Shown in pieces: positions 3,794 to 37,316 of a stretch of DNA of 64,000 bases. The DNA lies in the NCBI GenBank assembly GCA_021464415.1, contig CM038464.1, positions 56,347,328-56,411,327 of the forward strand. The letters are read 5' to 3'. This DNA comes from Lonicera japonica (taxonomy: Eukaryota; Streptophyta; Magnoliopsida; Dipsacales; Caprifoliaceae). Position 1 is the first letter of the stretch. Every line of letters starts with the position of its first letter. The notes under the pieces are model-generated. The model saw only the letters and a program-made list of their open reading frames with translations, did no database searches and had not been told where the DNA came from. Both the position numbers and the translations under genes were made by a program.

Positions 3794-3851
3794 CAGCCTC
3801 CCCTGAAAACAAACAACAAAAACTAAACAAAGACACCACAAAATTCAGACC

Positions 3852-6066
3852 ATGTCTTTCACTTGGACAACAACACTAGCACTAGTTGCCCTAGCCTATT
3901 TTCTTCAATCATGGCTAAGAACCAAGCTCACACACCAAAAACTCCCTCCTAGCCCCAAATCCCTCCCAATTATAGGCCACCTTCACTTGCTAGGCAAAAA
4001 CCCACACCAAGATTTGCATAAATTATCCCAAAAACATGGCCCAATCATGTACATGCGATTTGGCTTTGTGCCTAACATAATCGTCTCCGCACCCAAAGCA
4101 GCCGAACAATTCTTGAAAACCCATGATCTAAATTTTGCCAGCAGACCGCCCCACGAGGCGGCCAAGTATATTTCCTGGAACCAGAGGAACTTATCTTTTG
4201 GACCCTATGGCCCATACTGGCGCAACATGCGCAAGTTATGCACACTGGAGCTACTAAGCAGTCTCAAGATCAGCTCGTTCCAAGAAATGCGAAAAGACGA
4301 AATTACCCTTTTCGTCAAATCACTCGAGGAGGCTGCCAGAAAGGGCATGGCCGTTGATCTTAGTAAACAAATAGGGTCCTTGAGTGCAGATATGAGTTGT
4401 AGGATGGTGTTTGGGAGGAAGTACGAGGACAAGGAGATCGACGAGAGGGGTTTTAAGGCTGTGATTCAAGAAGGAATGCAATTGGCCGCGACTCCGAATC
4501 TAGGGGATTATTTCCCATACATGGGCAAGCTTGATCTTCAAGGGCTTACTAAGAGGATGAAGGCCGTGGCAAAGGTGTTTGATAATTTTTTGGAAATGAT
4601 AATTGAAGAACATGTTAAGTGTCCGAAGGAAGAAGGGCAAAATAAGGACTTTGTCGATACCATGTTGGGTATCATGGAATCTGGTGAAGCTGGTTTTGAG
4701 TTTGATCGCAACCATATCAAAGCCACCTTGCTGGTAATACATTTGTTTGAATATAGTTTAGTTTCTAGCTCATCCATACCGAAAAATCATTCTATAGTAG
4801 AATTAGAAAATTTGAATCATTAATTTTTAAATTAGACATTTCAACTTTTGAGCCCTCCGTGAGAGGGATACATGGTAGGACTCTTCTAAATTCACTCTAG
4901 AATATAAATAAAAGAAAATATGGACTACTATTTTTTAAGTAGAGAATTTAGGGTTTTGAGTCCGATTTTATATAAGTAAAAACAATTTGTCATAATTTAA
5001 AATTTGGTCCATTGATTTTAAACTATGTATTCTGCATAAATGTTGACAGAAAATTTAAATGTGTCCCAGTTCCTCTTGCAAAATTTAAAATTTGATATTA
5101 AAATTTAAAATTAATGGTTGAAATTTCCAAACTCAACTTATAAGGTAAAGTTTCTTGGGGCATAAATAGTACAACTTAATTATAATAAGGCTAAATATAG
5201 AGGGTATTAAAGTCCAGCTCATAATAAGACAATATATAGAAGAGCAGGGTCCATGTGAGCTGTGAAGTACGTGGTCTAATAATATGTTTGTCCATTTTCA
5301 CCAATTTCAAGAAAAAAAATTAAATGCAGAACAACCTTACATCACATATAAGGGGTCATTTTTATTTTTATTTTAACAAATCCACAAGTATTTTTCATTT
5401 ATACATTTGAGAACTAAAGTTTTTTTTTTTTTACCTTAAATATTTTTTCAGGACATGCTGGCTGGTGCAATGGACACAACAGCCACAGCAGTAGAATGGA
5501 CCTTAGCCGAGCTGATAAAACACCCAACAATAATGAAAAAAGTACAAAATGAACTTGAAAAAATAGTGGGCAAAAGCAGAATGGTTGAAGAATCTGACTT
5601 AGAAAATCTTTCCTACCTAGAAATGGTAATCAAAGAAAGCTTTAGGCTCCACCCAGTGGCCCCACTCCTCCTTCCACATGCGTCCATTGAAGACTGCACC
5701 ATAGATGGCTACCACATCCCCAAAAATGCGCGCGTTATGGTCAACGTTTGGGCCATAGGGAGAGACCCAAATGCGTGGGCTGACCCAGAGAAATTTGACC
5801 CAGACAGATTTATTGGGAGCAATATTGACCTAAGGGGGCGCGATTTTCAACTTCTGCCATTTGGGTCTGGGAGGAGAGGATGCCCCGGGATGCAGCTAGG
5901 GCTGATCCAGGTGAAACATTTGGTGGCGCAGTTGGTGCATTGTTTTAATTGGGAGTTACCTAATGGCATGTTGCATATGGAGTTAGATATGAGCGAGGAA
6001 TTTGGGCTTGTGGTTACCAAGGCCCAACATTTAGTGGCTATTCCTACTTTTCGCCTTGAAAGCTAG
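3852..6066 (+). CDS. CYP736A: Cytochrome P450, CYP736A-type (copy 1, intact)
   Basis: This is an intact two-exon P450: exon 1 3852-4733, a phase-0 GT-AG intron 4734-5451, exon 2 5452-6066; 498 aa, normal for a plant CYP71-clan enzyme. The protein has an N-terminal membrane anchor (about residues 5-22) and a proline-rich hinge (PPSPKSLP, 32-39). It also has the C-helix WRNMRK (123-128), the I-helix oxygen-binding motif AGAMDTT (298-304), ExxR (356-359), PDRF (411-414) and the haem loop [10 protein letters not shown] (431-440, ligand Cys438). Plant P450s of this type are ER-anchored monooxygenases that receive electrons from P450 reductase. The substrate is not predictable. CYP736A is my reading of the overall sequence, and the member number needs alignment. 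The start codon follows the TATA box by 58 bases and is conserved in copies 2 and 3. Confidence 0.93.
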
Positions 6067-13666: not shown

Positions 13667-13723
13667 CAACCCCCTTGAAAACAAACACCACAAACTAAAC
13701 AAATATACCACAAAATTCACACC

Positions 13724-14279
13724 ATGTCTTTCACTTGGGCAACAACAGTGGCACTAGTTGCCGTAGCCTATTTTCTTCAGTCATGGCTTAGAACCAAGCT
13801 CACACACAAAAGACTCCCCCCTAGCCCCAAATCCCTCCCAATTATAGGCCACCTCCACTTGCTAGGCAAAAACCCACACCAAGATTTGCACATATTATCC
13901 CAAAAACATGGCCCAATCATGTACATGCGATTTGGCCTTGTGTCCAACATAATCGTCTCCTCGCCTCGAGCGGCCGAACAATTCCTTAAAACCCATGACC
14001 TAAATTTTGCCAGCAGACCGCCCCACGAAGCAGTCAAGTACATGTCCTGGGGCCAGAGGAACATATCGTTTAGCCCCTATGGCCCATACTGGCGCAACAT
14101 TCGCAAGTTATGCACACTAGAGTTACTCAGTAGTCTGAAGATTAGCTCGTTCCAAGAAATGCGAAATGACGAAATTACACTTTTCGTCAAATCTCTTGAG
14201 GAGGCAGCCAGAGAGGGCACTGCTGTTGATCTTAGTAAAAAGATTTCATCCTTGAGTGCAGATATTAGTTGTAGGATGG
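13724..14279 (+). pseudogene. CYP736A-type P450 copy 2, cut by a retrotransposon
   Basis: The first 185 codons are intact and very similar to copy 1: membrane anchor, hinge, and the C-helix WRNIRK. After the codons for SCRMV the sequence switches abruptly to the LTR at 14280, which adds an in-frame TGA. The five bases before the insertion (GATGG, 14275-14279) are the expected target duplication. Its partner and the rest of the gene, including I-helix, ExxR and haem loop, are absent from the window; they may lie in the gap at 24364 or have been lost. The intact frame up to the break suggests the gene was functional when the insertion occurred. Confidence 0.9.
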
Positions 14280-15449
14280 TGTGAGAATCCGCAAATGCGA
14301 CCCCCCGGGTCTCGTCCCCGTTCGTGGTGGTCTGAAGCGTCGGAAGGGATTCCGTCGCTCCATTTGCTTGGAGTTGTTTGATGATTCATATCGGGTGTCC
14401 CTACGTCTATTCTAGATGCAAAGGGGTTCGTTCAGAGTCGCCAGTACGTTTTACGAGAAAACGGACAAAAAGGTTGTGTAAAGGGAAAGGCTATAGACAA
14501 GCCTTTCTTTACACGTTTGTCTGCGAAACCAGGTTTCTATAGGTTCGGGAACTATATTACGGTTTGGGAAGGTGTTAAGCACCCATTCCGCCCTTTCGGT
14601 CTCTAGTGGACTTATATGTTTATTCTATGTTGAAAAACTTAGATGCTTTTACTGACAGTCTACTACTTTTCAAATGAAAACCCTAATTTCTGGGGGAAGA
14701 CGGGAAAGGGATGAAAACCTTTGTGTTCCGAGATCCGATGTTTTATTTATTTGAAAAGATGTAAATACACATGACAAAACCTATTATTTTGAAAGAGTGT
14801 CCCGTATTATTTCCTCAGATAATGACGGTTTTCTCGTGTTGTGTTTACTTTTGTGAAAGTTCGGATCTAATATCGGGACTAATTTAATATGAAATCATGA
14901 CTCTTGAGAGGAGAATTATCAGACACATCGCAGTCTATAGAGAAGATAGGATATGTTGATTTTTAATTCCTAAATAAGTCTTATCAGTCCGGGTTTTGAA
15001 AACAGAATTTTATCCGGACGATAACGTACTTATTCTTCTAGTTTTGAAAATGGTTTTATCAGGGTCTTTTGTGTCGAAAACGATAGACTATTTGTAACTT
15101 GACAATAAGTTTATTCAAATAAAACGTGGACAGAAAAACAGAAGTAAAACAAGTACACAGATATCTAATTTTAAATACTAGAAGGGACTTTCTTTACCTT
15201 CCTGACGAGAATAATAATAAGAAAGAAAATATAATACGGCAGAGGGATCTCTGACGATAATAATCTTCTCCTTCTTCAGATATTTCCGAGAAATCGATTC
15301 CGGAGACGGGACACGTCGAGTGTCGAGGATAGATTCGATAATTCTTCAGAAATAAGATAATAGTAGAAAAGTGCTTGATAAAAATCAAATCTAAAGCTCC
15401 AAATTCTCAGATTCCATTTGCTGCCCCCGAACCCTTGGGGGTGTTGGCC

Positions 15450-15457
15450 TATTTATA
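15450..15457 (-). promoter_or_regulatory. TATA box of the LTR promoter
   Basis: On the minus strand this reads TATAAATA, followed by aggcc. It lies 15 bases downstream (in minus-strand terms) of the nearest TGTCGCGCGACA box. The older LTR at 36 kb keeps a TATA box at 36031-36038 with the same 15-base spacing. Confidence 0.75.
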
Positions 15458-15472
15458 CTGCTCGGGGAAGAT

Positions 15473-15730
15473 TGTCGCGCGACATTTCCCCAAAAAAGGC
15501 AAGTGTCGCGCGACATATCTGTTTGTCGCGCGACATTCCTGTATGTCGTGCGACAAACGGCTGAGGTGATGGGTCCTGACACTGTGATGTGTCAGAAAGT
15601 GGTTGGTCGGGTGCAGAGAGGGATTGTCGCGCGACATAGTGGGATTGTCGCGCGACATTCTAATGATTGTCGCGCGACAATGTGATATGTCGTGCGACAA
15701 TCCTTCATAAAATAGGTTTGTCGCGCAACA
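15473..15730. promoter_or_regulatory. Cluster of nine TGTCGCGCGACA palindromes in LTR U3
   Basis: Exact copies of the 12-bp palindrome start at 15473, 15504, 15524, 15625, 15646 and 15668. One-mismatch copies start at 15544 and 15688 (TGTCGTGCGACA) and at 15719 (TGTCGCGCAACA). Several are separated by only 8-10 bases. Each exact copy holds three CpG sites. The same box recurs before both internal antisense promoters of this element, which points to a binding site for one dimeric factor. Confidence 0.8.
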
Positions 15731-15838
15731 AACCCCCCCGGAGTAGTTTCGGGTGCTCGGGTGTGTCTCGGACTCCAAAAATAGTAGTCTCGTAGGTCGT
15801 TAGGGTTCTTGCGGGGGTCACGGATCGGGGTGTCTACA

Positions 15839-15852
15839 GACCCTCTCGACTC
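15839..15852 (-). other. Polypurine tract next to the 3' LTR
   Basis: On the minus strand the bases directly before the LTR read GAGTCGAGAGGGTC, followed by TGTAGAC. This purine-rich run is the expected plus-strand primer site of reverse transcription. It supports calling the LTR at 14280-15838 the 3' LTR of a minus-strand element. Confidence 0.65.
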
Positions 15853-15949
15853 AAGCTCCTTGCTTGCAAGGAATTGAGGCGACTGAAGAGACCATGATCC
15901 ATGGCTCCCGCATGAACTCTAAAGAAGTGTTTATGCAAAAAGTGCTTGT

Positions 15950-16660
15950 GAGTGCCTCCGGAGAGGGCTTCGTGTTTGATTTTGCCTCCGGAGAGGGCTT
16001 TTGTTACCTCATTGCCTCTCTCGAGAGCTTTGACTTGCTCCACTTGCCTCAGATGGGAGGTACCATTGCGCCTCAGGTGGGAGGACTACCGTTGTGCCTC
16101 TCTGGGAGGGCTTCGCCTCAGGTGGGAGGACTACCGTTTGTGCCTCTCTGGGAGGGCTTCGCCTCAAGTGGGAGGACTACCGTTGTGCCTCTCTGGGAGG
16201 GCTTTGCCTCAGGTGGGAGGACTACCGCTGTGCCTCTCTAGGAGGGCTTCGCCTCAGGTGGGGGAGGACTACCGTTTGTGCCTCTCTGGGAGGGCTTCGC
16301 CTCAGGTGGGAGGACTACCGTTGTGCCTCTCTGGGAGGGCTTCGCCTCAGGTGGGAGGACTACCGCTGTGCCTCTCTGGGAGGGCTTCGCCTCAGGTGGG
16401 AGGACTACCGCTGTGCCTCTCTGGGAGGGCTTCGCCTCAGGTGGGAGGACTACCGTTGTGCCTCTCTGGGAGGGCTTCACCTCAGGTGGGAGGACTACCG
16501 TTGTGCCTCTCCGGGAGGGCTTCTAGATCTGTAAGAAGAAGGAAAAAATGCCTCTGGGAGGACTTTCATGAGTAACTTTTGCCTCTGGAGAGGGCTTGTG
16601 ATTTTGCCTCTGAAGAGGGCTTGTGATTTTGCCTCTGAAGAGGGCTTGTGTTTGTGATTT
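15950..16660 (+). repeat. 45-bp GC-rich tandem array with 25-bp flanking units
   Basis: About ten units of 45 bp (core GCCTCTCTGGGAGGGCTTCG plus CCTCAGGTGGGAGGACTACC) run from about 16050 to 16526. On the left (15952-16030) and right (16555-16655) lie simpler units sharing the GCCTC..GAGAGGGCTT core; the right-hand ones have a 25-bp period (16581, 16606, 16631). The 45-bp array looks like an expansion from these. The array lies between the antisense genes and the 3' LTR. Because 45 is a multiple of 3, several frames stay open by chance; I do not read them as proteins. Confidence 0.85.
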
Positions 16661-17494
16661 TTGTTAAAATTTTAATTTGTCTCTCTTTAGATTGCTAGAG
16701 TGAGAGAGAGAAGTTTTTGTGAGGGTGAAAAAGAGCTCCTCGAGGTCTAATCTTATCCGAATGTCGCTTTCCTATATCTTTCTTGAATTTTGTTCTCATG
16801 TTTTCCTCGAGTGAGGATACTTTTCTCAGAAGGCAGTTTTCGATTTTCTTTGCTTTCCGCAGCGTGATGATTCGAGGATTTTCCAAACCATCTCTTCTGT
16901 ATCGTGCTGAAAAGAAAATTTGTCTGAAAGTCCAATCTCTGATCTCTGTTCTTTTCTCAATTTCTCTTTTTGGTGGGCCCAACATCGTTTTCTGTTTTTC
17001 GATGCCCTTATTTCTCCCTCTTTTGGGAAAGACTTTTCCTGGCCCTCTCTGTTTTTGACCAGGAGTCTTTTTATCCCTTTGTCGTGATCAGGAGCCTTAC
17101 TCACCCAAAACGAAGCCCTGAGCCGATTTGGCCTAGCTGTCACTTTTGGTGTGGCTCTCCCTGTCACTCTACATTTCTGTTTCTCTCGCTCGCTTTGGGC
17201 GTTCATACGGGTTATTTCTCTTTTCTACTTTTTTAATTTTTTCTATCCCCGTCTTATCTTGCCATTCTGTCTTTTCTTATTTGATGGTCTCGGTCCTTCT
17301 GTGAGATCAGAGACTACTTTTAATCGTGGCATTCTGTTCTCGCTTTTTTCGGAGAGATGATTTGGAAATTTTCTCTTTGAATTCTTTATGGGTGTGCGGT
17401 TTTAGCATTTTTTTCGGAAAACTGCTCCTCGGAAGTCCTCCTGTAGGAGATAAAAATGAGAAAAGAGGTCAAAAAATCAGGGGGGACAGGAGAT
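16661..17494 (+). other. Noncoding spacer between array and antisense gene 1 promoter
   Basis: CT-rich and T-rich sequence inside the retrotransposon. Open frames on both strands have no recognisable domain and no conserved start context. I see nothing beyond pyrimidine-rich tracts. Confidence 0.5.
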
Positions 17495-17579
17495 TGTCGC
17501 GCGACACTTCGGTGGGATGGCTCTTTGTCGCGCGACAATGTGGCCATTTGTCGCGCGACAAACTGCCCCACTATATAAG
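17495..17579 (+). promoter_or_regulatory. Promoter of antisense gene 1: three palindromes plus TATA box
   Basis: Exact TGTCGCGCGACA boxes lie at 17495-17506, 17526-17537 and 17549-17560. TATATAAG follows at 17572-17579, 11 bases after the last box. A CT-rich leader (17600-17670) then leads to ATG 17728. This is the same box-then-TATA layout as in the LTR on the opposite strand. Confidence 0.75.
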
Positions 17580-17727
17580 CCTCCTGCTGAGCTCATTCCA
17601 CCTCATTCTCTCTTTTCTCTTTCTCTCTCTAGCTCTCCTTCTCTCTTCTTTTCTTCTCTCCCAAGCGCGGAAGCTCCGCCGTGTTTTTGACTTTTCCGAC
17701 CTTCTTCATATATCCTACCTATACCTG

Positions 17728-20700
17728 ATGGACCCTGCTCATCCCGACAGACTGGAGGGCGACCAGGAGGAGGTTACTTTCACTGACGCTCAGGGCGTTC
17801 TCCGCTGCAGCCCTCATCATGATGACTGGGCGGATTTGAATTGGTATGATGAGGATGGGATAGACCGCGATCGAGCGGTGGTCTATCGGGATGCTATCCG
17901 AGCTGCTCCGGTCCCGGATGTCCCGTGGCTTTTGATGGAGCCTGTCTCTCACGAGATTCGTCGTCGATCTCTGGTATGTCTTCTTTCGTGCATTTATCTG
18001 TTCTGTTTCTTGTCGTTTCCTGTATTCGTTTTTAGATAATGTTAGTATGCATGTCTGCCTAGGAATAACGCCCGATTTTAGCGAACACATACTTTTACCT
18101 GTGATACCTCTTAGTTTTTAGGAAAAAAACATAATTTACCCCTTATAACCCTATATCTCTCATAATTACACCAAAGTACCCTCAGGTTTGGAAAATTACA
18201 TAATTTACCCCTATAGCCCTATAACTCTCATAATTACACCAAAGTACCCTCAGGTTTGGAAAATTACATAATTTACCCCTATAGCCCTATAACTCTCATA
18301 ATTACACCAAAGTACCCTCAGGTTTGGAAAATTACATAATTTACCCCTATAGCCCTATAAGTATCATAATTACACCAAAGTACCCTCAGGTTTTGGAAAT
18401 TTTACATAATTTACCCTTATAGCCCTAATAACTCTCATAATTACACCAAAGTACCCTCACGTTTGGAAAATTACATAATTTACCCTATAGCCTATAACTC
18501 TCATCATAATTACACCAAAGTACCCCTCACGTTTTGGGAAATACATAATACCTAATTACCCCTATAGCCCTAAAACCTCATAATTACACCAAAGTACCCT
18601 CAGGTTTGGAAAAATACATAATTTACCCCTTATAGCCCTATAACTCTCATAAACACCCAAAGTACCCTCAGGTTATTTCCAAATTAAAACCCCTATACCC
18701 CTATAACTTCATCATTACACCAAAGTACCCTCACGTTTTGGAAAATTACATAATTCCCCCCCATATAGCCCTATAACTCTCAAATTACACCAAAGTACCC
18801 TCACGTTTGGAAAATTACATAATTTACCCCTATAGCCCTATAACTCTCATAATTACACCAAAGTACCCTCACGTTTTGGAAAATTACATAATTTACCTTA
18901 TTAGCCCTATAACTCTCATAATTAAACCAAAGTACCCTCAGGTTTGGAAAATTACATAATTTACCCTTATAGCCCTATAACTATCATATTTACACCAAAG
19001 TACCCTCACGTTTTGGAAAATTACATAATTTACCCTTATAGCCCTATAACTCTCATAATTACACCAAAGTACCCTCAGGTTTGGAAAATTACATAATTTA
19101 CCCTTATAGCCCTATAACTATCATATTTACACCAAAGTACCCTCAGGTTTTGGGAAATTACATAATTTACCCCTATAGCCCTATAACTATCATATTTACA
19201 CCAAAGTACCCTCACGTTTTTACCCCTATAGCCCTATAACTATCATATTTACACCAAAGTACCCTCAGGTTTGGAAAATTACCTAATTTACCCCTATAGC
19301 CCTATAACTCTCATAATTACACCAAAGTACCCTCAGGTTTTGGAAAAATACATAATTTACCCTTATAGCCCTAATATCTCTTTCTCTTGTCTGCAGTGGG
19401 TTGGCCGGGGTTGGGGGCTCTCCCAACACTATATCTTCGAGTGGCGACGGGCACCGGCCCCTGTCCAGGAGTTGATTCTTGCGACTCTTTTGGCTCCCTC
19501 TTCGACGCCCTCCCGGAGCGGGTTTCTAGGGCGGCAGTTTTGGTGTCGGCCCTGGCTTGCCATTGGTGGGATACTACTCATACCTTCCATTGGAGCTGGG
19601 GTGAGATGACGATGACACCCCTCGATCTTTTTGCTCTGACCGGGATTCCTTCAGGGGGGGTCCCTATTCAGATCGATGTCCCTTTGCGTCTGACAGCAGA
19701 GGGTATCGTTAGTGCGCTTGGATGGTTCCCGGAGCGGCGGAGTTCCGGCGCGATCTCGATTCCTCGGGTGTCTTGGTTACGCGGCTAGCCGTAGAGAGAG
19801 CTCGGTTAGTTGCTTCAGGGGTTCTTATGACCCGTCAGGAGGCGCGCCAGTATGCCCGCGTCCTTCTTCTGTTGACACTCCATGATTTGTTCGAGGCACG
19901 TGGCGGGACACGGCTCACCTTTGGTGGTTGCCCTATCTTCGGACTTCAGCCTCATGTTTGACTATGACTGGGGAGGCTTCATTCTTGCAGTCCTCTATGA
20001 TGCCATGGACCAGGTCTCTCGCCATTTAGCCCTGAACCTCAAGGGCTTTTCTCTGCTGTGGGAGGTACATACTTAGTCCTTTTGTCCTTGCTTCAATTTT
20101 TGCATATTACCTGTTGATCATTGCTGATTTCTTTTATCTTTCCTTTTCAGAGCTGGTTTGTTGCTTATACCCGCCTGGGTCGTGCTCAGGTGGATCTCCT
20201 CGTTGAGAACGAGGACCAGTTTCCTTTTCTCCGCCGATTCATTGTGGGGAACTATCGGGCTCCCTATGTATACCGGACTCGGGAGACCGGAGCTGCTGCC
20301 GTTCACGACCTGTTGGAGGAGCAGGTAAATTTTTTAGTTCTCTTGTCTTTTATAGTTAAATAGAATATAAAATTATTGGAAATAAAAAACTTGTTTTCTT
20401 TTCAGGTTGAGTGGGCTCCTTGGGTGATCTGAGTCCCCATTATGGATATGGCCGCGCCTTGACCGCCTCGAGGACTAGGCGGCTTATCCGGGATGAGTAT
20501 GGCCTTCTCTTCTACTTGGGCGAGAGGGTCATTCGCCAGCACACGCCGTCCCAGTGGCCTCGTGTTCCATTATTCCCTCCTGTTCTGATGAGGCGGACGG
20601 GCGAGATCGATCCGGTGATGGTGCAGGCCTTGGTCGACGGACTCGGCTTCCAGACGTTCGTCGAGGAGGGAGACTACCCCGTTTTTGCTGCCGTTATCTG

Positions 20701-21961
20701 ATGAGGGAGCCGAAGGGGACTCGGGGACGGGTCTTCTATGAGAGGTACCGGGCACTGGGAGGTGATCCCAACTACATACGGGGACAGACCTATTTAGCTA
20801 GGGTGGTTCCGGGTCACTTGCCACCTGTCCCGATCAGAGGGACAACATTCCGGATTCTGAGGACGAGGATCATGAGGGATAGAGAGGATGTTCCTGCTGC
20901 GGCCGAGGGCGGTGGTCAGCCAGAGGGTGAGGGAGGTGATGCGACAGCTGTTCCGGAGCCGTCACCTCAGGCGACACCTGTGAGGGAGCAGCGTGCTGAG
21001 GGTTTCGAGTTTCCCACGGCCCTTCTGTGTCTCCGGGGGTTCTTTTTGCTGCTGCTGAGGCTGCTGAGGGGAGGGCGGGATTGTCTGAGAGGTCCTGGGA
21101 GCCTGCGGACCTTGGGGCAGACTATGAGCAGTTCGGGCGACTCCTCCAGCTGCGGTGGCTACTCCTTCTAGTGGGGTACCTCCTTTGAGGGCGACGGTCA
21201 TAGTGGATCCTCCGGGGGTCCGTACCTACGCCACGTTGACTCCTCTTCCGGCGACTGTCATGGGTCCTCCTGCCCGATCTCCAGGTTTCGGGGGTTCTTC
21301 ATCCCGGCCTCTCTTGTTCCCGATCCGCGAGGAGGGCGGGTCCACTTCTGCTGGTGTTCCGGCGGGGACGTCTATTCGTGGTAGTCTACCCCCACTCCCC
21401 AGGGACATCTCTTACGTTGGCGCTGGATTACGTCGATATCCCGTCCCGGAGTATCCCTTCCTGAGGATACTTTTGATTATCTGGGTGGTCGCCCTGATGA
21501 CGAGGTACTTTTTTCAACTTCTCTTGATACCTTTACATCCATCTATCTATTTTGACTGTGCTTCTTTCATCTTCTGTCTTTTTTACAGCGGGAGTGGGTG
21601 AGTGTACGGTGGCAGACCTACGGGCTTGGCACGCCCCAGTATCTTTACAGCTAGAACCTGCTCCAGTACGTCGGGTCGAGACCCCGGCCTACATGCGTGA
21701 TTATCAGAGGGCTATCAACGTCTCTTACGGCCGGACGATCCCCTAACCTCCTCTCATGTTTGGTCGGGAGTCTAGGCGGAGTAGCAGTCGGACTTCTAGG
21801 CGATCCGATCTTCGGTGATCCGTCCGACGGCACCGGTTCAGTCTACGGGTCCTTCCAAAGCGGCTGCTCCTCCCGCTCCCAGCGTCCCAGTCGTTGATCT
21901 TACTCCCGAGGAAGCCTCAGGTGATAGTGGGAGCGTGTCAAAACGCGCCCGAGTAGATTAG
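17728..21961 (+). pseudogene. Antisense gene 1: plant-mobile-domain-like protein, frameshifted
   Basis: The first exon 17728-17973 is acidic. A GT-AG intron (17974-19396) holds the 68-bp array. The next exon encodes a stretch ending DTTHTFHWSWGEMTMTPLDL, the hallmark of the plant mobile domain (a transposon-derived domain). More domain-like sequence follows (YDWGG..LAVLYDAMDQ near 19960; an exon 20152-20323 with clean AG/GT borders; RTRRLIRDEYGLLFYLGER near 20470), then a proline-rich tail and a basic end (SKRARVD) before TAG at 21959. At least three frame changes (near 19735, 19945 and 20695) break it, and I could not make the first intron join in phase. Function is unknown; this copy is dead. 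Confidence 0.72.
18145..19378 (+). repeat. 68-bp AT-rich tandem array inside an intron
   Basis: About 18 units of roughly 68 bp (ACCAAAGTACCCTCAGG, GGAAAATTACATAATTTACC, CCCTATAGCCCTATAAC). The first starts are exactly 68 bp apart (ctcagg at 18181, 18249, 18317). Later units carry indels and a C/G variant (ctcacg). The array fills nearly the whole intron between 17974 and 19396. It has no sequence relation to the 45-bp array. Confidence 0.85.
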
Positions 21962-22255
21962 CTTTCCCTTTTCTGCATTTAGTGTTAGTTTGGACAGATA
22001 TGTATTTATTTTAGACAGATATTAAAAACTGTTCTTTTATTGGATTTATAAAATATCTTTATTTGTGTTGATTATACTTTTATTCTCTGTGTGTGAAAGA
22101 TACATATATAAGAGTCAGTGATTTAGAAGCCATACCTTGTAGTGTAGTGGTATTTTTTCCTGTAAACAAGAGCAAAGTGAGAACAAAAAAATGATTCTTT
22201 TGGCAAAATGACTGTTATGTGTAAGAAAAACCAAATTAGGGTGACCCAAAGGGGT
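21962..22255 (+). other. Spacer between the two antisense genes
   Basis: AT-rich spacer after the stop of antisense gene 1, with T-rich stretches (22010-22080) that could hold its polyadenylation region. No coding signal. Confidence 0.45.
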
Positions 22256-22333
22256 TTTCGCGCGACAATCCCTCCTGGATATGAGTTTGTCGCGCGACAA
22301 ACAGGTACAGGTCCCTCTTTTTTGCTATAAATA
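22256..22333 (+). promoter_or_regulatory. Promoter of antisense gene 2: palindromes plus TATA box
   Basis: A one-mismatch box (TTTCGCGCGACA) at 22256-22267 and an exact TGTCGCGCGACA at 22288-22299 precede CTATAAATA at 22325-22333, 25 bases downstream of the second box. The first ATG is at 22371. This is the third promoter of the element with the same box. Confidence 0.75.
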
Positions 22334-22370
22334 CACCCATCTTCCTTCCTTCATCCCACACTTTCCAAAA

Positions 22371-23625
22371 ATGTCTTTTATCGCACAATCTCTGATTTTT
22401 CTTATGTCAATGCTAGAGATGCTTTGATATCTTCTGAAAATGGTCTGAACTTTGGTGCCTTCAGTCCTTTAGCGGGTTGATGCCATCGTTCGTCGATTTT
22501 TCCTTTCTGTTAGGTGCCTTGTATTTCTGGAGTCCTGCGGACCATCTCTTCCGTTTTGGACTAGATGAGCTCTGCCCGACCTATGAGGAGTTCTCCTGGC
22601 TGTTACGTTCTGACGTTCGTCTCCGATGGCAGTTCCCATAGAGAAATCGGTCCCCGTGACATGCTAATTGCTCTGTTAGCCATTCCCCCGGCGGCCTGTG
22701 ATGGTTTTATTGCCGATGGTTTTCTTGACCTTCATAAAATGGTGAGGTTCTTTCATCGTTATGAAGATAGGGCCTCTTACGGCGTGGGGCGTACTGCAGC
22801 AGCCCTGATTTGCCTGGTTTCTGATATGCTGCTGGTGACGGGTTCTTCCCGTGTTGATCCGACTATCCTGAGTCTGATTTACCAGGCTAGAAAAATAGGA
22901 GTCTATAGTGCCATCATTCTTGCAGAGACCCTGAATGGTCTTGATGATGTTCAACGGGGGGCCTCGCCCTTCTTCCGGGGAGTCCGCGTCTGCTATACAT
23001 GTGGCTGCTAGAGCGCTTTCGATCGGTGGGTTTCAACGGAGCTCGGCTCTCCGACAATCGATCATTTCTTCCATCGGCCTCTCTTTGGTGCTTTGACCAT
23101 GTCTTCCTCTGATTGGACGGTTATGGTTTTTCGGAGAACTTTCGGGCTATCCGGTGTGGAACATTCCTTGGTGGAAGCTGAGGGCAATGGTACTTAGCAT
23201 GGGGGTCAGAACTATGTTCGGCTCCGCGGGCTCTGGTTCACTTCCTTTTATCTCCTGGGCGTCTTTTTCGACAGTTTAACATTCCTCAGGAGGTTCCCCT
23301 TGGTCTAAACAACTTCTCTTCTGAGTCTAAATTTGTGACCCCACATGTTTCTTTATCGGTAGAGAGGATGTGGCGTGCTCGACTTACTCGTCGGTTCAAC
23401 TATGCCCGTTTTGTTTATTTACCCGGCCCCTCCGGGCTGATATCATCGCTCTTGCTGGCAATCTCTGAAGGAGAACTGATCGACGACCCCTTTCAAATGG
23501 AATGGTTCCGGTTCATGGATACGGAGGCTACTGATGATAACTTTGTCTTTGCATATCAGATCTTGGACGAAGCTCGGATCGACTTGGCTATTGAGGCACC
23601 AGTGTGGCCAACCCCTAGGGATTAG
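22371..23625 (+). pseudogene. Antisense gene 2: plant retroelement-associated protein (DUF7745-like), frameshifted
   Basis: Translations in alternating frames give one consistent protein. It shows YFWSPADHLFRFGLDELCPT then YEEFSWLL near 22530-22610, and a central part with HRYEDRASYGVGRTAAALIC (22757-22816). Later come SPRLLYMWLLERF near 22980 and a C-terminal part 23335-23625 ending in TAG. The PTxEE block and the SP.LLxxWLLE block recall proteins found with plant retrotransposons; the family name is my recollection and needs a profile search. Frameshifts near 22630, 22980, 23110 and 23190 disrupt it. It converges tail to tail with pol, whose stop is at 23851. Confidence 0.6.
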
Positions 23626-23850
23626 TTTTCTTTCGTATTTGTTATGTCTCCTTTGTAAACCTTCGGTGTTCTGAACCACCTTTTATTAATAATATATGAG
23701 GATGCTTGCGGGAAATAAATTTATTTACAAAGTTTAAACCGGGCCTGAAGTCACTTCTCAGGTTGCCTACGTTCCCCTTTTTGATTTTTACAAAGAACAA
23801 AAAGTTTGAGTTGGGGCTCAGGTTTACGTAGTTCTTATTACATGCCACAC

Positions 23851-24363
23851 CTATTGATAATACTTCTTCAGTCGATCCATGTTGACTGGTGAATGTAGTA
23901 ACTGCCCATCCAAATCAGTGAGTATAGCGGCACCTCCTGTATCGATTTCTTTGACGATGTATGGCCCTGTCCACTTCTGCCCGAACTTACCCTCGGATCT
24001 CTGGCCGGTTCTCGAATTTCTTTCAATACAATATCGTTCTCGTTGATACCTCGAGTCCTTACTTTCTGGTTAAATGCTCGAGCGATTCTCTTCTGATACC
24101 CCTGATGGTGGTATGCGGCTTTCAATCTTTTTCATCTAGTAGGGCTAGCTCGTTGTAACGTGCCTGGACCCATTCCAGTTCATTGACTTGATTTTCTAGT
24201 ATTACCCTGAGGGAGGGGACTTCTAACTCGACAGGGAGGACTGCCTCCATCCGTATGTCAGCAAGAATGGGGTTGCCCGGTGGAGGACCCTCTCGGTGGT
24301 GCGGTATCCCCACAATGCATATGGTAGTTTCTCCGGCCAGTCCCGGCAGGTGTCGGCATCTTG
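23851..24363 (-). pseudogene. Ty3/gypsy pol, integrase C-terminal region (partial)
   Basis: Minus-strand translation shows the end of a gypsy polyprotein. The blocks NPILADIRMEAVLPVELEVP, then RARYNELALLDEK-like, AFNQKVRTRGINENDIVLKE and RDPR..SSGRSGQGHTSSKK match the linker and GPY/F-like end of plant Ty3 integrases. The last residues (NMDRLKKYYQ) precede a TAG at 23851-23853. A frameshift near 23935 and another near 24123 are visible. The upstream part (catalytic integrase, RNase H, reverse transcriptase) is lost into the gap. This fixes the element's orientation. Confidence 0.85.
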
Positions 24364-24463
24364 NNNNNNNNNNNNNNNNNNNNNNNNNNNNNNNNNNNNN
24401 NNNNNNNNNNNNNNNNNNNNNNNNNNNNNNNNNNNNNNNNNNNNNNNNNNNNNNNNNNNNNNN
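24364..24463. other. Assembly gap (100 N)
   Basis: Exactly 100 undetermined bases, a conventional scaffold-gap length, so the true distance is unknown. Retrotransposon pol enters from the left, but the right side is neither retrotransposon nor P450 sequence. Several kilobases may be missing. Confidence 0.98.
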
Positions 24464-25394: not shown

Positions 25395-25516
25395 AATTAA
25401 TATCAAGACAATCCAATATATGTACTCACTTTAGCAAGAAACGACCTCCACCAAGTTTTTTATTTGTTTTTCTTTCTTGCATGTCCTCAATTCCACTCAA
25501 AATATTCTCATTTATC

Positions 25517-25524
25517 TATATAAA
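25517..25524 (+). promoter_or_regulatory. TATA box of P450 copy 3
   Basis: TATATAAA in the same context as copies 1 and 2, 57 bases before the ATG at 25581. The promoter region is preserved although the reading frame is not. Confidence 0.6.
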
Positions 25525-25580
25525 CAACCCGCTTGAAAACAAACAACACAAACTAAACAAATATACCATAAAATTCACAC

Positions 25581-28023
25581 CATGTCTTTCACTTGGGCAA
25601 CAAACTATTTTCTTCAATCATGGCTAAGAACCAAACTCACGCACAAAAGACTCCCTCCAAACCCCCAATCCCTCCAATTATAGGCCACCTCCACTTGCTA
25701 GGCAAAAACCCACACCAAGATTTGCACAAATTATCTTAAAAACATGGCCCAGTCATGTACATGCGATTCGGCTTTGTGCCCAACATAATCGTCTTCGCGC
25801 CCAAAGCAACCGAATAATTCTTGAAAACCCATGACCTAAATTTTGCCCGCAGACCGCCCCACGAGGCAGCCAAGTATATTTCCTAAAACCAAAGGAACTT
25901 ATCTTTTGGACCCTATGGACCATACTGGCACAACATGCGCAAGTTATGCACACTAGAGCTACTAAGTTGTATCAAGATCAGCTAAATGCGAAAAGAGGAA
26001 ATTATCATTTTCGTCAAATCGCTTGAGGAGGCGGCCAGAGAGGGCGTGGCCATTGATCTTAATAAAAAGATAGGGTCCTTGAGCGCGGATATGAGTTGTA
26101 GGATGGTGTTTGGGAGGAAGTACAAGGACAAGGAGATAGACGAGAGGGGTTTTAAGGTTGTGATTCAATAAGGGATGCAATTGGCCGCGACTCCGAATCT
26201 AGGCGGTTATTTCCCATACACGGGGAAGCTTGATCTTCAATGGCTCATTAAGAGGAAGAAGGCTGTGGCAAAGGTGATATTAATTTATTTGGAAATTATA
26301 AGTGAAGAACATGTTAAGTGTCCAAAGGAAGAAGGGTAAAATAAGTACTTTGTCAATACCACCATATATGTTGGGTATTATGGAATCCAGGAAAGCTGGT
26401 TTTGAGTTTGATCGCAACCATGTCAAAGGCATCTTGCGGGTAATATATTTGTTTGGATATAGTTTAGTTTCTAGCTCGTTTCTAGGTACAAAATTCATTC
26501 TAGAGTAGAATTAGAAAATTTGAATCATTAATTTTTAAATTAGACAATTCAAATTTTGAGCCATTCGTCAAAGGGATACATAGTAGGACTCTTCTAAATT
26601 CACTCTAGAATGGAGATAAAAGAAAATATAGACTATTAATTTTAAAGTAGACACTTTAGATTTTGAGTCCGATTTATATAAGTGCAAACTATTTGTCATA
26701 ATTTAAAATTTGGACCATTAATTTAAAATTATATAATCTGCATATATTCTGACAAGTAATTTAAATGAGTCCTAGTTTCTCTCTCAAAATTCAAAATTTG
26801 ATATTCAAATTTAAAATTAGTGGTACAAATTTCCAGCTCAACTTATAAGGTCATGTTTCTTGCGGTATAAAAGTAAAACTTTTAGTAAGGCTAAATATAG
26901 AAGGGCAGGATTCGTGTGAAATACGTCGTCTACTATGCTTGTCCTTTGATCAATTTCAAGAATTAAATTTTAAATGTAGAACAGCCTTATACATTGGAAA
27001 AAGTCAAATCTCTTATAGAGATAGAGAATGGAGAGAAAGAGAGAATATAACTCTAGAGAGATGAAGAGATTATTATTATTTCTTGATAATTTCTATTACA
27101 CATATCAGAGTATATATACACTTGGAGAAAGGTAATATAAAACACAAAAGAGGAATCTTAGAGAGAATACTATGATGTTGTCTCACACAAGAGGAATTCT
27201 AGAGATAATACTATGATGTTGTCTTGGGATCCAATGCCAATGTCTAACAAATGAGGATCCAATGCCAATGTCTAATAAATGGGAATCCAATGTCTAATAG
27301 AAAATGGGTCATTTTTTTAATAAATACACGAGTATTCTTCATTTATACATTGGAGAACTAATGGGTTTTTTATCTTAAATATTTTTTTTTCAGGATGTGC
27401 TAATTGCTGCAATGGACACAACAGCTACAGCAGTAGAATGGACCTTAGCCGAGCTCATAAAACACCCAACAATAATGAAAAAAGTACAAAATGAGCTTGA
27501 AAAAGTAGTAGGCAAAAGCAGAATGGTTGAAGAATCCGACTTAGAAAATCTTCCATACCTAGAAATGGTAATCAAAGAAAGCTTTAGGCTCCACCCAGTG
27601 GCCCCACTCCTCCTTCCACATGCGTCCATTGAAGACTGCGCTATAGACGGCTACCACATCCCCAAAAATTCCCGCATCATGGTCAACGTTTGGGCCATAG
27701 GAAGAGACCCAGACGTGTGGGCCAACCCAGAGAAGTTCGACCCAGACAGGTTTATTGGGAGAAATATCGACCTAAGGGGTCGCGATTTTCAACTTCTACC
27801 GTTTGGGTCTGGGAGGAGAGGATGCCCCGGGATGGAGCTAGGGTTAATCCTGGTGAAGCATTTGGTGGCGCAGTTGGTGCATTGTTTTGATTGGGAGCTA
27901 CCTAATGGCATGTTGGCTATGGAGTTGGATATGAGTGAGGAATTTGGGCTTGTAGTTACCAAGGCCCAACATTTAGTAGCTATTCCTACTTTTTGCCTTC
28001 AAAGTGGGGTAAAAGGGTTATAA
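25581..28023 (+). pseudogene. CYP736A-type P450 copy 3, decayed exon 1 and open exon 2
   Basis: The ATG and first residues match the other copies. A 7-codon in-frame deletion removes part of the membrane anchor, a 1-base deletion near 25675 shifts the frame, and an 11-base deletion lies near 25983. Several codons that are CAA, CCC/CAA or TGG in copy 1 are stops here (for example near 25738, 25814, 25886 and 26168). Exon 1 reaches about 26440. Exon 2 (27394-28023, 209 aa) is fully open with [21 protein letters not shown] and [10 protein letters not shown]; the I-helix reads IAAMDTT instead of AGAMDTT. Intact protein cannot be made. The intron holds a roughly 300-bp insertion absent from copy 1. 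Confidence 0.9.
26996..27303. repeat. Insertion in the intron of P450 copy 3, LTR-like
   Basis: Compared with the intron of copy 1, about 300 extra bases sit here between cctta(c/t)a and gggtca. The insert has internal near-duplicates (agaggaat..tactatgatgttgtct twice; ccaatgccaatgtctaa twice). TGTTAGACATTGG on the minus strand resembles a copia LTR start. No coding capacity. Confidence 0.45.
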
Positions 28024-33494: not shown

Positions 33495-34920
33495 TGGGTA
33501 AATCTAACTCAAGATGAGAGTGGGGCGAATTGCTAAGCCGGATTACGGTCCCTTTATCGATAACTAGCATTCGACGAGACACGATTGTCGTGCCTAATTG
33601 TTTAGGAGTGTAATGAGGTGTTCTTGCTTTATGTATTAGAGATCAGCAGTTTTTCATGAACTAGTTGCTTGTGTTCTTACTTTTTTTTGGTTTAACTTTT
33701 AAAGCAGACCTATCATTCACATTTGGCTTCTTACCAACGTATTGCAGTTGTATTGATTAGTTTGGATCACATTGAAACTCATAGGAACCTACTTTTGTGT
33801 CTTTTGTAGCTTTCTAAAGATTCTCCTCATCTCATGTTCTTCATTTTGCTTCAACCTGATCCATTAAAACAGAACACATCTACTAATTCTTTTGACAAAA
33901 TTCACTCGACCACCATGTAATGAGATACGACAGAATAACACGAAACAAAATTGACATGAAACTGAAAGAACTGATGCTCGTGTCAACAAGTTTTAACGCG
34001 GCCTAAAATGTTTTCTGCTTGTGCTATTATATTAACACAAAATAGAAATAATATTGTGTTAATTGTGTCGTGTGTAAATCACACTTAAATGTAATCAAAG
34101 TAGATGTTTTTTTATAGTTTTTTTTAGAATGCAAATGATATAATCATGTATATTATGTTATATCATGTTCATACTAGATAAAAATAACACAAACACGTTT
34201 CATGCAGTGTCCGTGTCTTTATAATACTAGTTTTTGACATGTTATTTATTTCATTTTATGTCATGCAAAAACACGAGACATAAATTCAAATTGTCACCCT
34301 TAATCCCTCGGCTTCTGCTGGCGAACATTGTTTGGTACTTTAATTAGAGGCCTTTTGATACTCCTTTAATCTTATATTAAGAAAATCCATTTAATATTTA
34401 ATGTTTGCACTTTCTATGAAAAATTATGAAAGTTGATGTAAAATTGAAGATTCTCTTACCATGGCCCACCAAAAAATGTGACACCTTGATAACAAAGGAA
34501 TGCTCCACGTAGTAAGACACCTGTCAAGTCTCTAAAATAAAATACTCGTCTCAGCATGATGATTGAACACGTGTCTCATAAATTACCACCGTGAGATTCT
34601 AGTCGGTAATATTTTATTTAATTTAAAAAAAAACCTTCAAATCTCATTCTTTTATTACATTAATAATATTATTTTATTTTATTTCTCTTATTACAACAAT
34701 AATAGAATTTAGTTTTACTTTCCTTCTATAAATTTAGTTCTCTCATAATGGTAACTTATTTTAATTTTAAAATATTATGGCTCGTGAAAATTTATAATAC
34801 GACCTCTGAACCTTAACATTTAGTTTGGAGGTTTAAAATATTGGTAGAAGTTCTTATTATTCATTTACTTCTATACGATAATAATTTATGTCGTGTGTCT
34901 CTTTATTTTATACTAAATAT
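33495..34920. other. Intergenic region upstream of the subtilase
   Basis: AT-rich, no gene recognised. It would contain the subtilase promoter near 33500-33700; no clear minus-strand TATA box was found. Nothing else stands out. Confidence 0.5.
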
Positions 34921-36200
34921 AGAAGGGTTCGTTTCAAAGTTGTCAGTACATTTTACGAGAAAATGGATAAATAGTAATGTAAGAAAAAAGGCTTCAAAAT
35001 AGCCTTTTTCTTACACGTTTGTTTACGAAATTAGGATTCTATAAGATTCAAGAATTATATTATGGATTGGAAAGGCGTTAAGCACACGTTCCGCCCTTTC
35101 GGTCTTTAGTGGTCTTATATATTTATTCTATATTGAAAAACTTAGATGTTTTTACTGATATTTTACTACTTTTTAGAATTATCTTATGAAAACTTAATTT
35201 TGGAAAAAACGGAGAAAGGCATAAAAACCTTGTATTCCTTGATCTGATATTTAGTTTTGTCAAAGTCTATTTACTAATGACAAAAGTTTATTTTATCTAT
35301 TTAGAAAATTTGATATTGATTCGGTATTATTTTCTCATATAACAATATCAATTATCTCATTGGTTAATTCATAAAAGATCGAATCTTATCGGAATTGATT
35401 TGATGTGGAATTGAACTCTTGAGAGAGCATATCAGATATATTGTAGTCTACGTTGAAGACAAAATATATCCGAGTGTAATTCCTAAGTAAGTTTATCAGT
35501 CCGGATTTTGAAAGCTTAGTTTTATCCTGATAATAATGGCTTACCTCTTCCGGTTTTACAAATAATTTTCATCAGGGTTTTGAAAAAATAGGTTTCATTT
35601 GAAAACGATAGAATATCAGTAACTTGACAATAAATTTATTCAACTAAAAAGTGGATAGAAGAACAGGTATAATAAGTCTACATCTATGAATATTAAACAA
35701 TTACAGTAAAACAAGTATACAAATATATAGTTAAATACTATAAGAGACTTTAATTACCTTTTTTACGATATATATAAAAGAATGAAAAAGAGAAAATATA
35801 ATGCGGTAGAGAAAATCTCAAGTGAATATCGCTTACCTTCTCTAGATATTTTCAAAAATTCGATTCTAGAATATAATACTTCGAGTGTCGAAAATGGACT
35901 CGAGAATTCCTCAGAAGTTAGACAAATATACAAAGTGAACTTGAATTCACTTGAAAATTAGAAAGTCAAATAGAATAATAGGAATTTCTAAGGTCAAAAT
36001 TCTAGAATATAACCTATGGGGATGTATGCCTATTTATAGTATTAGAAATGATTTGTTGCGCGACAATCAGCAACAAATTACCATTTGTCGTGCGATAGAT
36101 GGCCACATGTCACTTTTCACTTGAATGCTTAAATCTAAAATGTAATAAATATAACTAATAAATATAAGACTTTTATGATTGAATGATTGTTGCGCGACAA
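34921..36200 (-). repeat. Old LTR of the same Tat-like family (fragment or solo LTR)
   Basis: It aligns colinearly with 14420-15730 of the young LTR, for example cgccctttcggtct (35093) and ttattctat(a/g)ttgaaaaactta (35123). A minus-strand TATA box (36031-36038) sits 15 bases from TGTTGCGCGACA (36054-36065). Two further degenerate boxes follow at 36086 (TGTCGTGCGATA) and 36188. Many CpG sites of the young LTR are TG or CA here. The outer 140 bases of the left end are missing and the right end is unclear. No internal retroelement region adjoins, so a solo LTR or truncated copy is likely. Confidence 0.78.
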
Positions 36201-37316
36201 TCAGCAACAAATTACCACATGTAATAAATATAACGTTGAAATTTATGATTGAATGCTTAAATCTAATAGATTTTAAGCTCAAGTTTCACTTGAATGTAGG
36301 GTGTCCGGTAAAGAAGTAAAATTTTTATGTAATGAAAAAGTAGAATATATAAATATATTGACAATTTATATATGGTTCTTTGCTTCTTTTATTTAATGTA
36401 CATGAGTCCAAGCCAAACAAAGCAAGGAAGCTAATAGAGATCCAAAACAGATCGAGAAGAATTGCTAGGGGTCCAAAGAAAGACAATTCATCGAGATCAA
36501 AGGGAATAGTGGACGAATAAGGGCAATCAAAATTGTATTCCCCAGATTATTCAATCAAACTAACAAACAACCAAGAACAGCAGCAGCAACAACAGGAACA
36601 AGGGAATTTGTATTCCCCCGATTACGCAATTCAAGTAAGGCAAAACAACAAACAGAGAAGAAGAATCCAAGGAAGTAGTAGTGTATCTATGATAATATAT
36701 CAGAATCGGTAGCGTACGTGACACATATGCAATATAATATTAAATCATTTCTTAGATTATGTATAAAAATTTAAAATAAAATAAGCACATAGCAACGCGT
36801 GTCTTCCGTGTGTTTATGGGTTTGAGTTTTTATTTGAGTATTATTTTGATCGTAACTTACAAAGCCCGAAGGGTAATTTTGTAATTTCAAACTTCTCAAA
36901 AGTTCTTTTCTCAATTCACATATAGCATAGTTAGTATGGAAGATAAGGGACAAAACCAAGATATAAGACCGTGGGCCACATATTTAGTAGGCAAAAAAAT
37001 TGTTGAATAATTTTTATTCACTAATTATTCTTGTCATTACTTATGTTGCTTTTATGATGATCAAATTTATTATATTTATAAAGTGTGATAAATTTATAAA
37101 TTTTTTAAAAAAATATTTTTATTAAGTTTATTTGAGCGGAATATCTTGATTTTACTTTTATTGTTAATAATTTATTTGACTTAATCAACTAATAAATATA
37201 AGACTTTTGATAAAGTATTAAATTATTTTTATTTGGTCAACTAAAGGTCTGAGAGTAAATTTTGGAGGACATTGTATACAAGTAAGTTAAATGAAAATAA
37301 ATGTAATATATATACT
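36201..37316. other. Intergenic AT-rich DNA
   Basis: No gene recognised. A CAG/CAA-rich patch occurs at 36575-36605. Remaining sequence is AT-rich without clear transposon ends. Confidence 0.5.

Follow-up and report, generated by a model that had tools for sequence, protein, structure and literature searches.

A palindromic box shared by the LTR promoter and two antisense-gene promoters of a Lonicera japonica retrotransposon family as a candidate operator for a dimeric protein

The 64,000-nucleotide stretch of Lonicera japonica DNA analyzed here (GCA_021464415.1, contig CM038464.1, positions 56,347,328 to 56,411,327; hereafter the window) contains the 3′ part of a minus-strand long terminal repeat (LTR) retrotransposon, in which the 3′ LTR is followed by a 45-bp tandem repeat, the antisense genes 1 and 2, the last part of pol, and an assembly gap. 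Genes 1 and 2 lie on the plus strand, while the LTR and the pol remnant lie on the minus strand; the region between pol and the 3′ LTR is thus coding in the antisense direction. A palindromic 12-bp box, TGTCGCGCGACA, precedes the TATA boxes of the LTR and of both antisense genes. In its extended form, WWTGTCGCGCGACAWW, the box is very probably a shared DNA operator. It would serve one LTR retrotransposon family and would be bound symmetrically by a dimeric protein, with several dimers aligned on one face of the helix in U3. The predicted operator would act from 11–27 bp upstream of the TATA boxes of three units, namely the genomic RNA and two antisense accessory genes. Because the same site precedes all three TATA boxes, one factor would set the three units together. 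The factor would most likely be the gene-1 protein, which carries a plant mobile domain (PMD), the gene-2 protein, or both. It would activate its own promoters and the LTRs, or protect them from silencing, in a family-specific manner and would thereby form a self-reinforcing regulon. Taken as a whole, this proposal, read from sequence patterns, has in our judgment an even chance of being correct.

The box was matched 17 times in the window with up to two mismatches, compared with 0.44 matches expected; none of 100 shuffles gave more than 3. U3 contains nine of the matches, the gene-1 promoter three, the gene-2 promoter two, and an old related LTR three in decayed form. These positions agree with the first-pass annotation, which had described nine U3 boxes (six exact), three exact boxes before gene 1, an exact and a near-exact box before gene 2, and no others in the window except in the old LTR. 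The distances from the nearest box to the TATA boxes at 15450 (15 bp) and 17572 (11 bp) were also reproduced, and only the start of the gene-2 TATA box had to be moved, from 22325 to 22326. The box counts of the three promoters were reached in 0/2000 local dinucleotide shuffles of each; the density of the box is therefore not explained by composition. The 12-mers common to all three promoters are only shifts or pieces of the box. Extension of the window boxes outward showed that A or T is favored at two bases on either side, and the same preference was found in 18 further loci (described below), where the next two positions outside the box are A or T in 151/168 and 166/168 arms.

The host genome was searched over 886 Mb in 967 contigs. 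The exact box occurs 29,561 times, and its reversed control pattern once. Boxes followed by a TATA box were found at 3,842 sites of the LTR type, 580 of the gene-1 type, and 1,076 of the gene-2 type; the reversed controls gave none. When gaps of 13–16 bp were allowed, the LTR gap was 15 bp at 94 and 16 bp at 6 of 100 listed sites. With 10–12 bp allowed, the gene-1 gap was 11 bp at 99 and 10 bp at 1 of 100 listed sites, with many different spacer sequences. The gene-2 gaps are mostly 26 bp, with some of 25 to 29 bp. The 18 further loci have gaps of 15 bp (11 loci) and 16 bp (one locus) at the LTR, 11 bp at gene 1 (4/4), and 26 and 27 bp at gene 2. The claim that the LTR and both antisense promoters have the box in common thus holds across the family at near-constant distances. 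Neighboring boxes are 20–23 or 30–34 bp apart, with some longer distances (42, 61, 72, and 79–81 bp), and no distance of 24–29 bp was found in 39 family copies or in the 18 further loci. In the window, the ten short distances between box centers (20–23 and 31–32 bp) match two or three helical turns (P = 3.5e-5 at a fixed period of 10.5 bp and 6e-4 over periods of 8–14 bp, the 81-bp distance being excluded). One palindrome at a near-fixed gap from each of three TATA boxes, on both strands, in helical phase, and with the conservation relative to flanks described below is the pattern expected of an operator for a dimeric factor.

Palindromes could also act in RNA, where neighboring boxes would pair into hairpins of the genomic RNA that function in packaging, 3′ end formation, or double-stranded RNA. 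The U3 RNA folds with −147 kcal/mol, compared with −79.8 (sd 5.2) for shuffles (z = −13), as is expected of any set of palindromes. However, the gene-1 and gene-2 boxes are located upstream of their own TATA boxes at a near-constant distance. Moreover, the common variant TGTCGTGCGACA (61/296 U3 boxes) gives an A-C mismatch when it is paired with the standard box, and no compensating partner was seen. A role in RNA is extremely unlikely.

Family copies were picked by the leader and first exon of gene 1, not by the box. The query gave 1,822 first-look candidates, of which 40 were scored; one is the window itself, and 7.4 kb around each of the other 39 was used. Close copies are 94–98% identical. 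With up to two mismatches, the gene-1 promoter has boxes in 39/39 copies (three in 35, two in 3, and one in 1), together with TATATAA in 39/39. The gene-2 promoter has at least two boxes in 36/36 copies within reach; it lies beyond the stretch in L021, L030, and L041. No copy within reach thus lacks the boxes at an internal promoter. Boxes were found in U3 in 35 copies, that is, in 35/36 with U3 within reach. As for the others, the LTR end is truncated and U3 is missing in L033, L046 starts between the LTR end and U3, and L045 and L047 have no LTR sequence in the stretch. All 484 boxes of the 39 copies fall in the three promoters, with none elsewhere in those stretches. Four of the 36 gene-2 promoters (L028, L032, L038, and L044) have three boxes rather than two, in steps of 31–32 bp.

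Restriction to the family was assessed from the first 50 boxes listed, which fall in 18 loci of C1; these loci were compared with the boxes masked. Judged by their flanks alone, 12 loci are LTR promoters, 4 are gene-1 promoters, and 2 are gene-2 promoters; 0/18 are outside the family, in a 50-box sample that would miss host sites amounting to a few per cent of all boxes. The 12 LTR loci have 4 to 9 boxes each; single sites therefore seem to come and go while the array persists. Some of the 18 loci belong to a single element, which at 4.19–4.21 Mb on C1 has boxes at its two LTRs and at both antisense genes.

Many plant LTRs use host factors. A host transcription factor could likewise bind the box, the element having gathered the site at three promoters to follow one host signal; we regard this as possible but doubtful. 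By half-site, the nearest named candidate is an auxin response factor (ARF), since TTGTCGC contains the TGTC core of ARF sites, and the auxin-response overlap proposed in the first-pass annotation stands for this core and for nothing beyond it. The CAMTA and E2F patterns are VCGCGB and TTTSSCGC, respectively, and neither matches the box. The proposed E2F-like overlap, TTTCGCGC, occurs in no box but the variant at 22256, where the two aligned relatives read TGTCGCGC. In the excerpts through which papers are cited here by PMC number, Arabidopsis roots express reporters that have TGTCGC elements (PMC10690724). However, ARFs prefer TGTCGG and inverted repeats spaced by 7–8 (PMC10690724), whereas the half-site of the box is TGTCGC and its arms touch (spacing 0). 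Constraint extends beyond TGTC to all 12 positions and to the A/T flanks, and the lack of any locus outside the family in the 50-box sample, within its few-per-cent limit, also argues against a host factor.

The strongest contrast between boxes and flanks was observed in diverged copies. Compared with the window, the boxes of four diverged gene-1 loci differ at 3/144 positions and the sequence outside at 143/740 (P = 2.9e-9); for 12 diverged LTR loci, from −60 to +40, the values are 9/288 and 166/797 (P = 3.3e-15). These P values are rough, since neither the positions of a locus nor the loci of the family are independent of one another. Overall, boxes differ by 2–3% and flanks by 19–21% at the LTR and gene 1. 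In the alignment of six diverged U3s, the boxes also vary less than the sequence outside (0.139 versus 0.192). The old LTR in the window, which is ~33% diverged, has boxes at 36054, 36086, and 36188 with 1, 2, and 1 mismatches. Its TATA-nearest box keeps the 15-bp gap and 11/12 bases, compared with 4/15 in the spacer, and two of its boxes are identical at 21/24 positions versus 12/34 in the spacers (P = 1.1e-4). Among the close copies, the mean pairwise differences in and outside the boxes are 0.017 and 0.060 for gene 1, 0.011 and 0.083 for gene 2, and 0.024 and 0.054 for U3.

If the boxes were functionless, they would descend from a recent master copy or have multiplied by duplication. The high identity of the close copies, in which the boxes are not clearly exceptional, is in line with this. 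However, the spacers between boxes are unrelated (26/82 mirrored spacer columns identical, P = 0.085), the boxes of diverged copies are approximately seven- to ninefold less changed than the flanks (LTR and gene 1), and the box is the sole sequence that the three promoters have in common. This explanation is already strained, and we consider it very unlikely.

Each 12-bp box has three CpGs, whereas U3 outside the boxes has 4 CpGs in 182 bp (observed/expected 0.49). Of the 146 changes within the 484 boxes, 130 are C to T or G to A. Both features would suit boxes that are CpG-dense marks for methylation or for its avoidance, rather than operators. Such marks would leave the fixed TGT/ACA ends, the A/T flanks, and the TATA distance unexplained and are, as the whole explanation, quite unlikely; they may operate together with an operator. 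CpG decay, considered as a sign of selection on the boxes, gave a mixed picture. In close copies, CpG columns vary less in the boxes than outside at gene 1 (P = 0.0076), and gene 2 gives P = 1.0 with only 2 outside columns.

Gene 1 matches the plant mobile domain PF10536 with 41 bits (E = 1.8e-10) in the window and 65.1 bits in copy L051, the cut-off being 34.9. It has four putative GT-AG introns, which would survive retrotransposition unspliced, since the genomic RNA carries the gene in antisense. The first intron is occupied by a ~68-bp tandem repeat (window 18095–19409). For gene 2, no family above the cut-off was found among the Pfam matches of the pieces scanned. Gene 2 of L051 shows a weak PF10536 match under the cut-off (16.3 bits, E = 0.0057), for which a comparison of the gene-2 and gene-1 profiles gave no support, and no solved structure resembling gene 2 by sequence was found. 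The TRP28 domain (PF04195) did not turn up in the Pfam scan of gene-1 and gene-2 pieces, which covered the earlier exons of gene 1. Both genes are broken in the window copy, and other copies keep open frames. Raw pairwise values on related copies gave ratios of nonsynonymous to synonymous polymorphism (pN/pS) of 0.226 for gene 2, from the 7/36 copies that keep 300 or more open codons, and 0.236 for the gene-1 PMD exon, from the 11/39 copies that keep 230 or more in a frame that enters the next intron slightly. Both antisense genes look to be under selection. The host genome has other PMD genes, with 162 PF10536 matches from 117 scored of 4,838 candidates; the best of these matches belong to PMD families other than that of the element, and some have open frames of 600–985 codons.

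Several observations weigh against a shared operator bound by a product of the element. The box distance of 80–81 bp is out of the 10.5-bp phase. In near-identical copies, many non-box 12-bp windows are as uniform as the boxes; the share of such windows that are at least as uniform is 0.43, 0.40, and 0.15 for the gene-1 boxes, 0.07 and 0.00 for gene 2, and 0.02–0.61 for U3. A shifted box mask equals the result in 50/420 (gene 1), 10/350 (gene 2), and 6/398 (U3) cases, and the conservation signal among near-identical copies alone is weak. In gene 2, with two diverged loci, the difference (4/48 versus 55/368) is not significant (P = 0.15). The CpG columns of the six diverged U3s vary slightly more in the boxes than outside (0.155 versus 0.124). 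The diverged sample favors intact boxes because its loci were found via the exact box. A check from the gene-1 core-promoter anchor is free of this lean, and the exact box stands directly before the anchor at 47/53 listed places (C1, and C2 to 76.15 Mb; by eye). As for the proteins, the Pfam scan of gene-1 and gene-2 pieces gave no DNA-binding domain, and to our knowledge PMD is not established as a DNA-binding domain.

Some parts of the system are already known, namely gypsy antisense genes driven by their own promoter (PMC7264820) and PMD in gypsy elements (PMC9289625). PMD is the commonest non-canonical domain in gypsy consensuses, and the excerpt of that paper describes no promoter motif (PMC9289625). 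The Ty3-gypsy elements Grande (gene23), RIRE2, and Retand also have antisense open reading frames between pol and the 3′ LTR (PMC7264820, PMC11963269). Gene23 of Grande has a promoter of its own and encodes a nuclear product, and tandem repeats occur in the same region (PMC7264820, PMC11963269). The function of antisense genes in plant gypsy elements is called unknown (PMC7264820, PMC11963269). In the Retand lineage, the antisense frame of 97% of clusters contains TRP28 (PMC11963269). Unlike these elements, the present family has a PMD protein and a protein of no named family, with no TRP28 seen in the pieces scanned. In addition, the LTR and antisense promoters have a palindrome in common, which the excerpts on Grande, RIRE2, and Retand do not mention (PMC7264820, PMC11963269). 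The region between pol and the 3′ LTR is 2.9–6.6 kb in Retand, often with tandem repeats (PMC11963269); here it is longer, ~8.0 kb (15838 to 23851), and tandem arrays are present.

In the VANDAL/VANC system of Arabidopsis, a protein encoded by the transposon acts via a short motif that recurs in non-coding sequence of the same family (PMC5735166). A family-specific short motif repeated in non-coding parts is also found here. VANDALs are a different kind of element, with VANC proteins, whereas the present case concerns an LTR element with a perfect palindrome in a fixed place before TATA and a predicted binder. The host PMD proteins MAIN and MAIL1 are linked to the 'DOWN' promoter motif and to transposon silencing (PMC7156037). 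They are encoded by host genes, and the authors of that study leave motif recognition by the complex open (PMC7156037). The box 12-mer, as text, was found in one unrelated paper of the open-access literature searched, and no shared operator of this kind was found there, the primary Grande and Retand papers being outside its scope. Repeated short sites before an element promoter and an antisense accessory gene are also known from the TnpA sites of En/Spm and from the HTLV-1 U3 repeats with antisense HBZ. HBZ is named in PMC11963269.

We infer that the site acts at the DNA level, with a dimeric binder, an activating effect, and a binder encoded by the element. The chances that the element itself encodes the binder appear evenly balanced. 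This origin is favored on several grounds: no sampled box falls outside the family, the site is longer and stricter than would be expected for a host factor, two selected accessory genes stand under it, and VANC acts in a comparable way (PMC5735166). An array that reaches nine sites ahead of the LTR TATA box suggests activation or anti-silencing, and repression for copy-number control is possible. More tentatively, the PMD protein of the retrotransposon may recognize the private palindrome at its own promoter, at the second antisense gene, and at the LTR, and may thereby counter host silencing across the family.

Other features were observed in U3. A small inverted repeat, CTGACAC...GTGTCAG, lies between both box groups (window 15577–15597) and is largely retained at the same place in L055–L057, L059, and L060; a second factor may bind there. 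Where the window has its ninth box (15719–15730), several of these loci show a palindrome-like site around TTGTTGGCCAACAA, with outer ends as in the box and a GGCC center instead. In L055 and L069, TATAAATA is present on the opposite strand, 8 bp from the far end of the U3 box array, and some U3s may therefore be two-way promoters. An origin of the U3 array as a large inverted duplication was unsupported (box symmetry P = 0.15, spacer identity P = 0.085).

The coordinates of the features are given in Table 1. The pol remnant gave no Pfam match, and we tentatively read this short sequence as pol of the gypsy/Tat type; the reverse transcriptase is located past the assembly gap. The element interrupts one of three similar P450 copies in a row (13672–14282, 3800–4584, and 25508–26283), with the 3′ LTR inside it. 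In viral contigs, no relatives were found by protein, paired box, or LTR anchor, and ten box-plus-TATA matches with one box each were taken as chance. Five bacterial contigs (L001–L005) have two exact boxes 21–39 bp apart, by chance or as an unrelated bacterial operator.

Table 1. Features of the retrotransposon and of the related old LTR in the window
Feature	Position	Strand	Remarks
U3 box array	15473..15730 (15473, 15504, 15524, 15544, 15625, 15646, 15668, 15688, 15719)		6 exact, 3 with 1 mismatch
Gene-1 promoter boxes	17495..17560 (17495, 17526, 17549)		all 3 exact
Gene-2 promoter boxes	22256..22299		22256 with 1 mismatch, 22288 exact
3′ LTR	14283..15838	-	left end (approximate) where P450 paralogue alignment breaks; right end at TGTAGACACC
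LTR TATA box TATAAATA	15450..15457	-	15 bp from nearest box
Gene-1 TATA box TATATAA	17572..17578	+	11 bp past last box
Antisense gene 1, PMD protein	17729..21961	+	at least 4 putative GT-AG introns; broken in window copy; extent read from sequence
Gene-2 TATA box TATAAATA	22326..22333	+	26 bp past last box
Antisense gene 2, protein of no named family	22371..23625	+	broken in window copy; extent read from sequence
pol end, putative, integrase-like by reading	23851..24363	-	cut by N gap 24364-24463
Old related LTR, ~67% identical	34750..36300 (ends approximate)	-	TATA and three decayed boxes

A shared operator of the genomic and both antisense promoters would provide a concrete, testable target for the antisense-gene proteins of plant gypsy elements. 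If a host factor binds the box, one host signal could reach thousands of LTRs, given the 3,842 box-plus-TATA sites of the LTR type. If instead the PMD protein recognizes the palindrome, PMD would be a DNA-binding or DNA-guided family, which would bear on the action of the host proteins MAIN and MAIL1, and a family tied to transposon silencing would gain a mechanism.

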